NCBI GenBank assembly: GCA_023132135.1
Contig: JAGLYR010000128.1
Coordinates: 1-11,543 of the forward strand
DNA: 11,543 bases
Source: Candidatus Eiseniibacteriota bacterium
Lineage (GTDB): Bacteria; Arandabacterota; Arandabacteria; JAGLYR01
Reading direction: 5' to 3'
The position numbers were made by a program, and so were the translations under genes. The notes below the pieces were generated by a model that made no database searches, was not told where the DNA came from, and worked only from the letters and a program-made list of their open reading frames with translations. Positions 456 to 6,100 of the stretch are shown piece by piece; positions within the stretch are counted from its first letter, which is position 1, and every line of letters starts with the position of its first letter.

Positions 456-2477
456 TCAGTCCTTCAGATACTCCCCAAACCACTCATACATCGTCTTCCA
501 CCACAATTCCGCGTTCTGGGGCTTGCGCACGAAATGATCTTCGTCGGGGAAATAGAGTAGCCGCGCTCGCACGCCCTGGCGCCGATGAGCCGTGAAACAC
601 TCCAGCGCCTGCTCCACAGGAACCCGGAAATCGTTCTCGCCGTGAACGATGAGCATGGGGGTCCTGAAGTTCGCCGCATATGTGTGCGCCGACCATTTCT
701 TGTAGAGGTCCGGATTCGTCCACGGCGTGCCTTCCATCTCCCACTCCGGGAACCAGAGCTCTTCCGTCGCCCCGTACATGCTGGTGAGGTTGTAGACCCC
801 ATCGTGGTTCATCAGGCACTGGAAGCGATCGGTGTGTCCTGCGATCCAGCAGACCATGTAGCCGCCGTAGGACGCGCCCGCCGCGCCCACCCGATCGTCA
901 TCGATGAAATCGTAGGTTTCCAGGAGGTAGTCAAGACCCTTCATCAGATCAATGTAGCAGCCTCCACCCCAGTCCCCGCTGATGGCGTCGGTGAAATCCT
1001 GACCGTACCCGGTGGAACCCCGGAAGTTGATCATGCTCACCACGTAGCCGGGCGCCGCGAACATCTGGGCATTCCAGCGGTAGTGGAAATCATCGTCCCA
1101 GGACCCCTGGGGCCCGCCGTGAATAAGGAAGATCATAGCGTACTTCTTCCCCGGGTCGAAAAAGGGAGGCTTCAGCAGAAGCCCGTGGACCCGATCGCCC
1201 TCGGCGCCCTCGAACGAGAACTCCTCCACGTGCTTCATGACGACATTCTCCAGAGTCTCCTCGTTGTGGCGCGTGAGCGGCCGGACTTTCTTGCCCGAGG
1301 AGGTCGCCATGTAGATGTCAACCGGATGGTCCATCGCCTGGTGGCAGTAGACGAGATTCTTCCCGTTGGAACTCACCCGGACGTTGGTGATGTATCCTCC
1401 GCGCACCAGCTCTTTGACCTCGCTGTTCTTCACCGAGACGGAGTAGATGTTCGCCCGGCCCTGATCCACGGCGCTGAAGTACAGCTTCGAACCGTCGGGA
1501 GCCCAGACGAAGTTCCTCATCGACCGGTCGAAATCCGCGGTGAGGCTTTTCCTTTCCCCGGTCCGGCGGTCATAGAGCATGATCTGCCGCCGGTCCGCCT
1601 CGAATCCGGCGCGTTCCATGGCCACGTAGGCGATGTATCGGCCATCCGGGGAATAGGCCGGCGAATGATCGTTGGCTGTGTTGTCCGTGACACTCCTGGC
1701 CGGTCCACCGATAACCGGCATGACAAAGAGGTCGTTGTTGGTGCTGATGGCCACCACGGGGTCCGGATTCAGGCAGTAGCAGATCTCGCTGCCGTCGGGC
1801 GAAAAATCATAGTCGTCGCCGCCCCCAAGGGAGATGGGGGGGCAGTCCCGGGCGCCGGGCGTGAGATCCCTAGGTTCACCGCCCTCCGACGGAACCACAA
1901 AAAGGTGGCTCCACTTGTTCTCCCTCCAGTGATTCCAGTGGCGGTAGAGAAGATCGTCGATGATCCTGGCGCGGATCTCGCTCTCGGCGCGTTCGTCGTC
2001 TCTGGCCTTGTTGCAGGAGTCGGTCTCGCAGTCGGCGTACACGTCTGATGTAAAAGCCAGGTGTGTCCCGGTCGGAGACCACTTCACACCTCCGGCCCCC
2101 GTGGAGATGTCCGTGATCTGCAGCGCCTCTCCCCCGGTCGTCGGGAGCATCCAGATCTGCGGACTCCCGTCGCGTGTGGAGATGAAAGCGATCCTGCTTC
2201 CGTCCGGAGACCACCGGGGATGAGTATCGTTGGCCTCGGAGGTGGTGAAACGCCGGGTTTCCCCCGTCTTGATGCTGACGATCCAGATATCGGACGTGCT
2301 GCTGTTATCTGCCTTGTCGAAATCCCGCACCACGTAGGCGACCCACTTGCCGTCGGGCGAAATCTGAGGATCGCCCAGGCGATCGATAGCGTACAGATCG
2401 TCGAAGGTCAGGACTCTTTCCGCCGCGGCCGGAATCGCCGCCAACATGATCATCACCACAAACAGAACAAGACGCAT
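456..2477 (-). CDS. Secreted S9 family prolyl oligopeptidase-type peptidase (dipeptidyl aminopeptidase/acylaminoacyl peptidase)
   Basis: A 673-residue serine peptidase. The ATG at 2477 is chosen over one 66 bp upstream because it follows AAGGAG at 6 bp spacing and begins a clear signal peptide (MRLVLFVVMIMLAAIPAAA), predicting export. Residues of about 20-400 hold TolB/PD40-like beta-propeller repeats marked by recurring SPDG/SPTG/APDG phrases followed by aromatic-hydrophobic strands. The C-terminal alpha/beta hydrolase domain has HGGP (453-456, oxyanion region), the nucleophile in GASYGGYM (Ser536), the acid in HGENDFRVP (Asp616) and His648 in PDEDHF. The complete triad implies an active enzyme. 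Families of this type cleave oligopeptides, releasing N-terminal dipeptides or acyl-amino acids; the propeller excludes large proteins. Exact specificity is not visible. It is the last gene of the speD-speE operon, 13 bp after the zinc-ribbon stop, so it is probably co-transcribed with polyamine genes, an unexpected pairing. Confidence 0.93.
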   Translation of the reverse strand: MRLVLFVVMIMLAAIPAAAERVLTFDDLYAIDRLGDPQISPDGKWVAYVVRDFDKADNSSTSDIWIVSIKTGETRRFTTSEANDTHPRWSPDGSRIAFISTRDGSPQIWMLPTTGGEALQITDISTGAGGVKWSPTGTHLAFTSDVYADCETDSCNKARDDERAESEIRARIIDDLLYRHWNHWRENKWSHLFVVPSEGGEPRDLTPGARDCPPISLGGGDDYDFSPDGSEICYCLNPDPVVAISTNNDLFVMPVIGGPARSVTDNTANDHSPAYSPDGRYIAYVAMERAGFEADRRQIMLYDRRTGERKSLTADFDRSMRNFVWAPDGSKLYFSAVDQGRANIYSVSVKNSEVKELVRGGYITNVRVSSNGKNLVYCHQAMDHPVDIYMATSSGKKVRPLTRHNEETLENVVMKHVEEFSFEGAEGDRVHGLLLKPPFFDPGKKYAMIFLIHGGPQGSWDDDFHYRWNAQMFAAPGYVVSMINFRGSTGYGQDFTDAISGDWGGGCYIDLMKGLDYLLETYDFIDDDRVGAAGASYGGYMVCWIAGHTDRFQCLMNHDGVYNLTSMYGATEELWFPEWEMEGTPWTNPDLYKKWSAHTYAANFRTPMLIVHGENDFRVPVEQALECFTAHRRQGVRARLLYFPDEDHFVRKPQNAELWWKTMYEWFGEYLKD

Positions 2478-2490: not shown

Positions 2491-2946
2491 CTAGTAGGAA
2501 TCCTGCATTCCCTCCTTGAACATCCGGAGGAACTGCTCGTCAAGATCCACGATCTTCAGCCGATGCCCAACACAACCCTTCCTCCGGCACCCCTCCAGAA
2601 CACTCCCATGGGGAAGATGCAGCGCGAACATGGGCGCCGAGCACAAACTGCAGATCTCCTGGGTCTCGCCAAGATCCGTTCCACAGTGAGGGCAGGACAG
2701 CCCGATGATTTCCCCCTCCGGAATCTCGAAGGTGTACTTGTTCTCGAAGCTGCCGTACCTGGGATCCAGATAGAGGATGCCCTTCTGCCCGCCACACTCA
2801 GCGAGAACTGAGATGGAAGGGTTCTCTCCGATCCTGACCGAGGCGTCGATCAGATTGCAACCCTTCGGGCATGCTACATGCCCAAGATGGATCGTTTTTG
2901 AGGGAACGGAGATGATGATTTCGTCCTCCCGGCGCTTTTCGCTCAT
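2491..2946 (-). CDS. Cysteine-rich zinc-ribbon protein, unknown function (internal start within the speE fusion frame)
   Basis: A 151-residue product starting at an ATG 7 bp after a perfect AGGAGG, in the same frame as speE. I do not recognise the family. It has nine cysteines: C26-x3-C30, C51, C85-x2-C88, C99-x2-C102, C120-x4-C125. The CPHCG...CSLC portion (85-102) resembles a zinc ribbon. The rest is probably beta-rich (runs such as EIIISVPSKTIHL and GILYLD) and ends in an acidic helix. No signal peptide or membrane segment is visible, so it is likely cytoplasmic. The strong ribosome binding site suggests it is, or recently was, an independent gene of the polyamine operon, possibly made both free and as a SpeE tail. 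A metal-binding or nucleic-acid/ribosome-associated role would be a guess from the fold alone. Confidence 0.6.
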   Translation of the reverse strand: MSEKRREDEIIISVPSKTIHLGHVACPKGCNLIDASVRIGENPSISVLAECGGQKGILYLDPRYGSFENKYTFEIPEGEIIGLSCPHCGTDLGETQEICSLCSAPMFALHLPHGSVLEGCRRKGCVGHRLKIVDLDEQFLRMFKEGMQDSY

Positions 2947-3795
2947 GATGGTTCCTCCTGAAGGATCCTGGTTGCCGGCAATCAGATCGCCCCACCACGT
3001 CGGCAGCGCAAATGATGCTCTGTGAACATCCGGGTTGTAGTGGCGACCAACAAACCGTCTCTTTGGAGTGTCAACGGGCCTGCCGCCGCTGGAAGCCAGC
3101 ACAAAGGCCATGTCCCCGCCAATGTAGGTAGGAACCGGGGCGCGGAAGACATGAAGCGAGCCAAAAGCCTTCCAGACATTGCCGGCGGCCATCCGCAGGA
3201 TCCTGGGGTCATGCGCCGGGATTCCCGCCTGCTGCGCCATGACCCCGCCCGGAGTGAGGCACTCCCGGACGGCCCGGTAGAACTCCGTCTCAAAGAGGAC
3301 CTTCCCTGGGCCGACCGGATCGGTGGAGTCGATGAGAACCGCGTCAAAGGAATGGCGTCGGGCTGCGGACTTAACAAAGGCAGCTCCATCACCCGTCACC
3401 AGCTTGGCCCGGTGGTCGGAGAAGGAAGAGGCGAAAGCGAGATATTGCCTCGAGACAGCCACCACCCGTTCATCGATCTCAACCAAGGTTGCTTGCCGGA
3501 CAGACTCGTGCTTCAGCACCTGGGCAAGAGTGCCGCCGTCACCCCCGCCAATGATGAGAACCGACTCCGGCGGGTGAACCAGACCATTGATGGGCACCTG
3601 GGCGAGTGTTTCATGATAGACCCACTCGTCGCCCTCCGTTGTCTGAACGATTCCATCCAGAACGAGAATATGGCCGAGTCGCGGGTGCCGGTACACAGCG
3701 AGATGCTGATACCGCGTATTCTCCTCGTGGACGCGCTGAATCCGGAAACCCTGCCGGATGGAATCGAATGGATCCTCGTACCACCATTCCGGCAT
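2491..3795 (-). CDS. speE: Spermidine synthase fused in frame to a C-terminal zinc-ribbon domain
   Basis: A 434-residue reading frame. Residues 1-283 are a full-length bacterial spermidine synthase (usual length about 280-300): LVLDGIVQTTEGDEWVYHE (44-62), the nucleotide/dcAdoMet loop GGGDGG (83-88), acidic VEID (105-108), GDGAAF (135-140) and catalytic DSTDPVGP (156-163). SpeE transfers the aminopropyl group of decarboxylated AdoMet to putrescine in the cytoplasm. The synthase reaches its normal end near ALPTWWGDL, but no stop codon follows: the frame runs through AGGAGG and an ATG (residue 284) into a 151-residue cysteine-rich domain. The start is the ATG sharing its A with the speD stop (TGATG), preceded by GAGGA, so translation is probably coupled to speD; a 17-codon longer start lies inside speD and is disfavoured. 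This may be a true fusion, a lost speE stop codon, or a sequencing error. The synthase assignment is secure; the fused state is less so. Confidence 0.9.
   Translation of the reverse strand: MPEWWYEDPFDSIRQGFRIQRVHEENTRYQHLAVYRHPRLGHILVLDGIVQTTEGDEWVYHETLAQVPINGLVHPPESVLIIGGGDGGTLAQVLKHESVRQATLVEIDERVVAVSRQYLAFASSFSDHRAKLVTGDGAAFVKSAARRHSFDAVLIDSTDPVGPGKVLFETEFYRAVRECLTPGGVMAQQAGIPAHDPRILRMAAGNVWKAFGSLHVFRAPVPTYIGGDMAFVLASSGGRPVDTPKRRFVGRHYNPDVHRASFALPTWWGDLIAGNQDPSGGTIMSEKRREDEIIISVPSKTIHLGHVACPKGCNLIDASVRIGENPSISVLAECGGQKGILYLDPRYGSFENKYTFEIPEGEIIGLSCPHCGTDLGETQEICSLCSAPMFALHLPHGSVLEGCRRKGCVGHRLKIVDLDEQFLRMFKEGMQDSY
2954..2959 (-). promoter_or_regulatory. Perfect Shine-Dalgarno AGGAGG inside the speE reading frame
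   Basis: AGGAGG on the minus strand lies 7 bp before the ATG at 2946. It is the strongest ribosome binding site in the window and is translated as part of the speE-zinc-ribbon frame, because no stop codon separates the two domains. It supports a separate start for the zinc-ribbon protein. Confidence 0.75.
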
Positions 3796-4187
3796 CACGA
3801 TTCCTCGCCGGGCATACCCCTCTTCAGCTCCACAACCTCCACGCACGCAGGCTCAAGCCTCTTGCGCAGGTAGTCGAGGGCCCTCTGAGCATCCCCTCGC
3901 CCACACATGAAGACGTCAACCGCAGCATAGTTGGATTCCGGCCAGGTGTGAATGCAGATGTGCGATTCGGCAAGCGTCGCCGTCCCGGTGACGCCGTGGG
4001 GAGCAAACTGGTGCACGCAGAGATTGATCAGCGTAGCTCCACCGGCTGTCACGGCCTCGCCGAGGAGTGCCTCAATGCGCTCGGCATCGTTCAGGAAATC
4101 CGCGGGCGCGCCCCACATCTCCGCCAGAACGTGGACCCCGACGGTGGACACTGGACCCGGTGGGTATGCCGTGTTCTGTTTGGCCAT
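3795..4187 (-). CDS. speD: S-adenosylmethionine decarboxylase proenzyme, prokaryotic class 1B
   Basis: A 130-residue SpeD, the usual length of the short bacterial/archaeal class. The enzyme decarboxylates AdoMet to give the aminopropyl donor for spermidine synthesis. It is made as a proenzyme that cleaves itself between E74 and S75 in LAESHICIHTWPE, turning Ser75 into the pyruvoyl cofactor. Ser75, His80 and Cys95 have the same spacing as the known Ser63/His68/Cys83 of the Thermotoga maritima enzyme, so processing and catalysis should be intact. The ATG at 4187 follows GAGGAG at 6 bp spacing. A longer frame starting at 4361 is rejected because it would begin upstream of the predicted promoter and be translated through a leader hairpin. 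The stop overlaps the speE start by one base (TGATG), placing substrate supplier and consumer in one coupled operon. Confidence 0.96.
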   Translation of the reverse strand: MAKQNTAYPPGPVSTVGVHVLAEMWGAPADFLNDAERIEALLGEAVTAGGATLINLCVHQFAPHGVTGTATLAESHICIHTWPESNYAAVDVFMCGRGDAQRALDYLRKRLEPACVEVVELKRGMPGEES

Positions 4188-4357: not shown

Positions 4358-6100
4358 TCATGAAGAATCCAGGCTGGTCCTCAGTCCTTGCTTTTCGATG
4401 ATCTCCACAACCCTTCCCGCGTCCATCCGCACCACTCGATCCGTCAGGTCCATGGTCTCCTTCCGGTGCGTAACCACCACCACGGTCCGGCCTTTCCAGA
4501 GATGACGGAGCCGCTCCATCAAGGATTCCTCGGTGCCGAAGTCCAGCGAGGTGAGGGCCTCATCCAGGAGGATGACAGGCGGATCATGAAGAACCAGCTG
4601 GGCCAGAGCGATCCGCTGGCGCTGGCCGGCAGACAGGTTGCCGCCCACCTCGCCGATCGTCGTGCCATATCCCTTTGCGAGATGCTCCACGAAGGAATGG
4701 GCTTCCGCCGTCCGGGCCGCTTCCACAATAGCGTCACGGTCCGCACCCAGTTTTCCCAGGCCAATGTACTCGGCAATCGTCAGTCCGAAAAAGGTGGGCT
4801 CCCGGTCGAGCCACCCGAACTGGGATCGCCACAGCGAACGGTCCACAGTCTCGGCCCCGTGTTCGTCCAGAAGGATGTGCCCTGAGTTCAGTTCATACAA
4901 ACCAAGGGCAAGCTTGATCAGCGTGGTCTTTCCCGAACCATTCGGCCCTGTCAGAGCCGTCATCTCTCCCGGAGGGAAATCGAGATCAACACCATGAACG
5001 CCGGCATCCGTTTCCGGATAGGTGAAACTCACACCGCGGAACCCGAGATGGCCTCGGCAGCGGCGGAACGGATCTCCGCCTGAACCCGACTTCTCCGGTT
5101 CCGCACCGATGAGGTCCGAAACCCGCTTGGCCATGCCCAGAACTGTTTCCATGTGTATGTAGGAAAGAGCAAGGGTTCCTCCGGCGGCCGCAACAAGAAA
5201 CACAAAGGTTGAATACGCCGTCAGATCGCCCAAGTCCATTTGCTGTCTCTGCACATACCTGGTTCCCAGCCAGATCGTCACTCCTCCCAGACCGACGGTG
5301 GCCACCGTCGCCAGTGAGTGAAACAGCGCGTTGTACAGGACAGCCCGGTCCTGGAGCCCCTTGTTCTCATCCACCCTGCGATCGTGCCGTTCGCCGAAAT
5401 AGGACTCCAGGGAAAGCGTCTTGATGATCCGTATTCCAAGGAAGCTCTCCTGCGCGGTCATGGCCACCCTGGCCAAGGATTCCTGGATGGCGTTCCCCAG
5501 GACCCGGAGCCGTCGTCCCACAACAAGTCCCAGGGCCATGATCAGGAGAGCTGCAACGGAGAGAAGAGAGGTGAGACGCCAGCTCGCCGAGAACAGGTAA
5601 ACCAGACCCACAATAAGTACCGGCCCGTGGCGGAGGAATGCAGGAATGATGAAGGTGATCAACCGCTGGGCAAAGCCGGCGTCGGCGCTGATCACCGAAA
5701 CAAGATCCGCGGATCTGCGGCGCTCGTGAAAGGTGACCGGAAGCCTGAGGGCACAACGGAAGATCTCGTGACGCAGATCCGCAACCACACGGTTGGCAAT
5801 TCGGCTGGAAATGAGAGCATTCGAGAACTGGCAGGCGGCAAGAAGGATCAGGAGAAAGAAGAAGTAGACCAGCAGCCGTCCCATTGGAAGGTCGACCGGA
5901 TTCCCCGCGGCAACGTTGACGGCCTGCTTGGCGAACCAGGGAAGAGCAAGCATGGTGATGCCGGTTCCGAAACCGGCGATGACGCCGATCGCGAACCGCA
6001 AACCGTGCGGGCGGAGGTGGGGAAAAACAAGCCTGAACACCGTGATGAAACGGGCCCCGCCGCTCTCTCCGTGATTCGAATTCCCTGTTGCGCGCGTCAC
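4358..6100 (-). CDS. ABC exporter half-transporter (MsbA-like, permease fused to ATPase)
   Basis: A 580-residue fused exporter subunit of standard length. Residues 1-330 form the ABC type-1 transmembrane domain, with hydrophobic segments near 35-57, 75-97, 150-170, 177-196, 262-282 and 295-315. The nucleotide-binding domain has Walker A GPNGSGKT (385-392), Q-loop Gln427, signature LSAGQ (489-493), Walker B VILLDE (509-514), D-loop SLD (518-520) and H-loop His545. All catalytic residues are present, although the signature has Ala for the usual first Gly. Such proteins dimerise in the inner membrane and export lipids, peptides or drugs on ATP hydrolysis. The substrate is not readable, and it could be a homodimer or need a partner encoded elsewhere. 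The start is GTG, preceded by GAGGAG at 5 bp. It is transcribed in the same direction as its neighbours but has its own predicted promoter. Confidence 0.94.
   Translation of the reverse strand: MTRATGNSNHGESGGARFITVFRLVFPHLRPHGLRFAIGVIAGFGTGITMLALPWFAKQAVNVAAGNPVDLPMGRLLVYFFFLLILLAACQFSNALISSRIANRVVADLRHEIFRCALRLPVTFHERRRSADLVSVISADAGFAQRLITFIIPAFLRHGPVLIVGLVYLFSASWRLTSLLSVAALLIMALGLVVGRRLRVLGNAIQESLARVAMTAQESFLGIRIIKTLSLESYFGERHDRRVDENKGLQDRAVLYNALFHSLATVATVGLGGVTIWLGTRYVQRQQMDLGDLTAYSTFVFLVAAAGGTLALSYIHMETVLGMAKRVSDLIGAEPEKSGSGGDPFRRCRGHLGFRGVSFTYPETDAGVHGVDLDFPPGEMTALTGPNGSGKTTLIKLALGLYELNSGHILLDEHGAETVDRSLWRSQFGWLDREPTFFGLTIAEYIGLGKLGADRDAIVEAARTAEAHSFVEHLAKGYGTTIGEVGGNLSAGQRQRIALAQLVLHDPPVILLDEALTSLDFGTEESLMERLRHLWKGRTVVVVTHRKETMDLTDRVVRMDAGRVVEIIEKQGLRTSLDSS

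Follow-up and report, generated by a model that had tools for sequence, protein, structure and literature searches.

Does a spermidine synthase gene that continues in frame, with no stop codon, into a downstream zinc-ribbon gene encode one fused protein, two products of a single frame, or two ordinary genes whose separation is missing from the assembled sequence? The question is raised by a stretch of 11,543 nucleotides from a Candidatus Eiseniibacteriota bacterium (assembly GCA_023132135.1, contig JAGLYR010000128.1), referred to here as the window. As argued below, the join probably does not represent a novel type of system; either speE has lost its stop codon recently or the sequence is wrong at one base.

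The joined frame and its junction

On the minus strand, a frame of 434 codons (3795-2491) stays open from SpeE through a linker and a zinc-ribbon protein to a TAG (Table 1). Approximately residues 1-271 constitute the SpeE part. An ATG at 2946-2944, in frame and 283 codons past the SpeE start (that is, residue 284), begins a cysteine-rich protein of 151 residues with a weak zinc-ribbon match. The sequence-only reading had described one uninterrupted frame with an internal Shine–Dalgarno sequence and ATG, and our re-reading of all three elements bears out both the description and its coordinates. This is a dual-start arrangement, with a Shine–Dalgarno sequence and an in-frame start lying within a longer gene. 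The predicted fusion, of about 48 kDa, would contain the junction-spanning peptide ...DLIAGNQDPSGGTIMSEK..., and the predicted free zinc-ribbon protein, of about 17 kDa, would begin (M)SEKRR.

Table 1. Features of the joined frame and its gene cluster (positions in the window).
Feature	Positions	Strand	Details
S9 (prolyl oligopeptidase) family peptidase, next gene	456..2477	minus	ATG 2477; Pfam Peptidase_S9 2.3e-64
Zinc-ribbon protein, 151 aa	2491..2946	minus	ATG 2946, TAG 2493-2491; family alignment and Pfam
Junction after ...TWWGDL, tail I A G N Q D P S G G T I	2947..2982	minus	12 codons
Shine–Dalgarno AGGAGG	2954..2959	minus	7-nt spacer to ATG 2946
speE, spermidine synthase plus 12-codon linker, without stop codon	2947..3795	minus	Pfam Spermine_synth (PF01564) 1.5e-47
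speD, S-adenosylmethionine decarboxylase	3795..4187	minus	Pfam AdoMet_dc 2.1e-38

Four linker codons, CAG 2970, TCA 2961, GGA 2958, and GGA 2955, could each become a stop through a single base change, and a substitution at either GGA would also change the Shine–Dalgarno sequence. The +1 frame has a TGA at 2984 and a second at 2945, the latter overlapping the zinc-ribbon start as ATGA, a common form of gene overlap. Upstream, the speD TGA and the speE ATG share one base (TGATG). The speD start at ATG 4187 is a likely one, picked by inspection; the listed reading frame opens at 4361.

SpeE, the zinc-ribbon protein, and their relatives

Domain content and equivalog score place the first part among the polyamine aminopropyltransferases. 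It scores 263.6 bits against NCBIfam NF002010 (cut-off 260), which is equivalog level, and 238.1 against TIGR00417, under the cut-off of 249.55; it also matches E. coli SpeE (3o4f, E 3.6e-54), and the motifs GGGDGG and DSTDP are intact. The assembled frame aligns with B. subtilis SpeE through D-L-I and with E. coli SpeE beyond it. In about 35 SpeE relatives, leaving out a few loci in which the pattern hit another place, the stop lies 7-16 residues past a conserved ‘LP’; the closest (52% identical) terminates ...LPTWWQEVMEEAQA-stop. This C-terminus, a usual SpeE feature and no condition of membership, is absent in the window, where the sequence after LP reads LPTWWGDLIAGNQDPSGGTI, 18 residues up to the ATG, and the frame runs 169 residues past LP. 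Since the relatives end at positions that fall inside the linker of the window, a two-gene origin is indicated.

Two further observations concern speE. The second-closest relative (49%; locus L041, with the same gene in L073) has a TAG in place of Leu in the conserved ‘FALPTWW’, after which PTWWQDS continues in frame; this may be a premature stop, a read-through site, or an error. Among the eight sampled genomes of the phylum, the only close speE is that of the window genome. Because its closest relatives lie beyond that phylum, the gene may have been horizontally acquired.

The second part, judged by full-length alignment and invariant Cys and His residues, is a member of a family of stand-alone zinc-ribbon proteins. 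Other lineages have about 29 near full-length relatives, each a free-standing protein of 142-158 residues; identity is 32-49% across almost the entire length, and in an alignment of 26 sequences, Cys 26, 85, 88, 99, 102, 120, and 125 and His 128 are invariant. The N-termini of the relatives (M..KKRE...IEIPSKAI) align with MSEKRREDEIIISVPSKTI of the window, and the alignment begins at the window ATG. It is for this reason, and not because of the motif alone, that ATG 2946 very probably marks the true start of a gene. The full-length relatives have an in-frame stop 1-63 codons ahead of their start, a usual feature of the family and no condition of homology, versus 302 open codons here. The sequence-only reading had left it to homologues to decide whether SpeE and the zinc ribbon are one gene or two; these support two, for the full-length zinc-ribbon relatives are separate and start at the equivalent of ATG 2946.

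The family is uncharacterised and present in many of the sampled lineages. In three loci (L016, L068, and L008) the stand-alone gene lies between an agcS-like symporter gene and era, a conserved neighbourhood. The window genome has a second, stand-alone and more distant copy of about 34% identity (G000, contig C58:4356-4730; L002). Related domains also occur within redox and signalling proteins: in five loci (L111, L115, L009, L011, and L012) thioredoxin-like 2Fe-2S (NuoE/HydC-like) subunits end in a C-terminal zinc ribbon of the same family, and four frames of 626-630 residues (L098, L100, L112, and L116) have a related stretch at about residue 430-540, which in L112, the one scanned, lies between the HisKA and HATPase_c domains of a histidine kinase. 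Accordingly, a fusion would be tolerable, and a role as a domain is not foreign to the family. The AlphaFold model of the window protein is fair (pLDDT 81); a Foldseek search with it gave no PDB match below E 0.9, and a PDB sequence search only short zinc-ribbon similarity.

Lost stop codon, selected design, or sequence error

The full fused protein was used as a query in 386 genomes, counting matches at E 1e-30 or better. Although 122 genomes had matches, none but that of the window itself covered both parts, and a conserved SpeE–zinc-ribbon fusion was rejected on this ground; such an absence shows only that the join is not widespread. The phylum sample comprised eight genomes of one class, and the other seven have no close speE. 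With one genome having the join and none comparable in the phylum, it rests on a single assembly. Linked speE and zinc-ribbon genes were not seen in six neighbourhoods examined, nor in L008, L013, and L016; a DNA-level plasmid search returned one short speE match only. The join was found in no other genome among those searched; the literature search was brief.

How unusual is the junction? For random sequence with this base composition, a downstream start is expected to be in frame and preceded by 11 stop-free linker codons about 23% of the time, so the stop-free linker alone is weak evidence. Across 432 kb of the window genome, window included, the pattern AGGAGG-N4-10-ATG occurs 33 times, with at least 80 codons downstream in 21 cases. 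Besides the window site, only one has more than 300 open codons upstream, which we take to be a chance occurrence within a single GNAT/FemAB-like protein. The fold around the zinc-ribbon start is unremarkable (z 0.30), and therefore no regulatory device is indicated. A hairpin sequestering the Shine–Dalgarno sequence was considered as a coupling device; a small one is present in the fold and is not unusual, being matched or exceeded in strength at 33 of the 305 sites with AGGAGG in the part of the genome that was sampled.

These results bear on the readings in which the arrangement is a design. It is tempting to propose a selected dual-product gene, whose fusion and free zinc ribbon are both functional in a ratio that matters, given the strong internal Shine–Dalgarno sequence at optimal spacing, the modularity of related zinc-ribbon domains, and the documentation in Salmonella of in-frame alternative starts giving two proteoforms (PMC11005335). 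We regard this as unlikely, since there is no conservation among the searched genomes to show selection and both the fold and the hairpin are ordinary. A more specific form, in which the zinc ribbon would tether or regulate SpeE and the internal start would supply free module in a controlled ratio, as a bifunctional polyamine gene, seems to us a shade less likely still. An obligate fusion, with only the 48-kDa protein made and the internal signals a relic, is very improbable: the frame is indeed uninterrupted, but the Shine–Dalgarno sequence is perfect and optimally spaced, and the zinc ribbon retains the N-terminus of its stand-alone relatives.

A sequence error is a more serious contender, and we hold it possible, if not probable, that the true genome has a speE stop in the linker, and two ordinary separate cistrons. 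The SpeE and full-length zinc-ribbon relatives are all separate, one base at any of the four linker codons named above suffices, and the assembly is in 345 contigs. A substitution would be a simpler route than an indel. Nevertheless, an indel between 2982 and 2950 would bring into frame the TGA at 2945, the only nearby out-of-frame stop other than that at 2984, and leave an ATGA overlap; speD and speE, just upstream, overlap as well. Against an error, the interval 2982-2950 is without homopolymers of more than two bases, the other window genes looked at (speD, the S9 peptidase, and an ABC transporter) are all intact, and good consensus sequence is generally reliable at this scale. The specific indel suggested by the sequence-only reading, restoring the TGA at 2984 (at GATCTGATT), is disfavoured. 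SpeE would then end ...LPTWWAI and lose the conserved D-L-I that aligns with the end of B. subtilis SpeE, and the relatives carry 7-16 residues past LP.

We consider it somewhat more probable than not that a cluster of speD, speE, the zinc-ribbon gene, and the S9 peptidase gene was joined by a recent loss of the speE stop, with the free zinc ribbon still made and SpeE made as a fusion. A single base change is enough for such a loss at several codons of the linker; the speE stop would have been lost, probably recently, when one of the 12 linker codons acquired a substitution. The tight spacing suggests one mRNA for the cluster. Ribosomes starting at speE could not stop before 2491 and would make the SpeE fusion on its short linker, while those starting at AGGAGG/ATG 2946 would make the zinc-ribbon protein. 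Two products would be the natural prediction from this DNA. The frame, the motif, the start, the family assignments, and the lack of the join in the other genomes searched are observed; that the DNA is correct, the mRNA single, both products made, and SpeE activity retained is what we infer. Against stop loss, the join is in one assembly of one species, and a one-base consensus error would look identical. We place a real join over an error at about two to one, a judgement and not a computed value.

Provided that the DNA is right, the locus would capture two genes in the act of fusing through stop loss, before the downstream start has decayed, and would add a new domain combination for SpeE. 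An error, on the other hand, would be a warning against inferring domain fusions from single draft genomes.

Comparison with known systems

Like class I SpeE (NF002010; 3o4f from E. coli and 1iy9 from B. subtilis), the window protein has the full domain, intact motifs, and the speD-speE order; it differs in having no stop codon and in a C-terminal zinc ribbon absent from all relatives searched. With the stand-alone zinc-ribbon family, whose members have about 150 aa and match Pfam Zn_Ribbon_1 weakly, it shares the N-terminus and the Cys/His set. The window copy, however, is in frame with speE, whereas several of the relatives examined lie by agcS and era or near other genes.

CheA and IF2 are encoded by genes with internal in-frame starts that give two N-terminal proteoforms. 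The joined gene likewise has one frame, an internal Shine–Dalgarno sequence and start, and a predicted long and short product, but its arrangement recurs in none of the other genomes searched. Bacterial genes that yield two N-terminal proteoforms from an internal start in the same frame have been documented (PMC11005335).

Polyamine enzyme fusions are also known, among them the bacterial AdoMetDC–aminopropyltransferase proteins (Green et al. 2011, as cited in PMC12803844). They share with the window the joining of a polyamine enzyme to the product of a neighbouring gene; they combine two pathway enzymes, with the partner N-terminal to the aminopropyltransferase, and are reported to have been functionally tested. 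In contrast, the window join, seen in one genome, puts an unrelated zinc-ribbon partner at the C-terminus. Set beside these systems, it is best classed as one unconfirmed case of two genes fused through stop loss, in which the downstream gene has kept its start.
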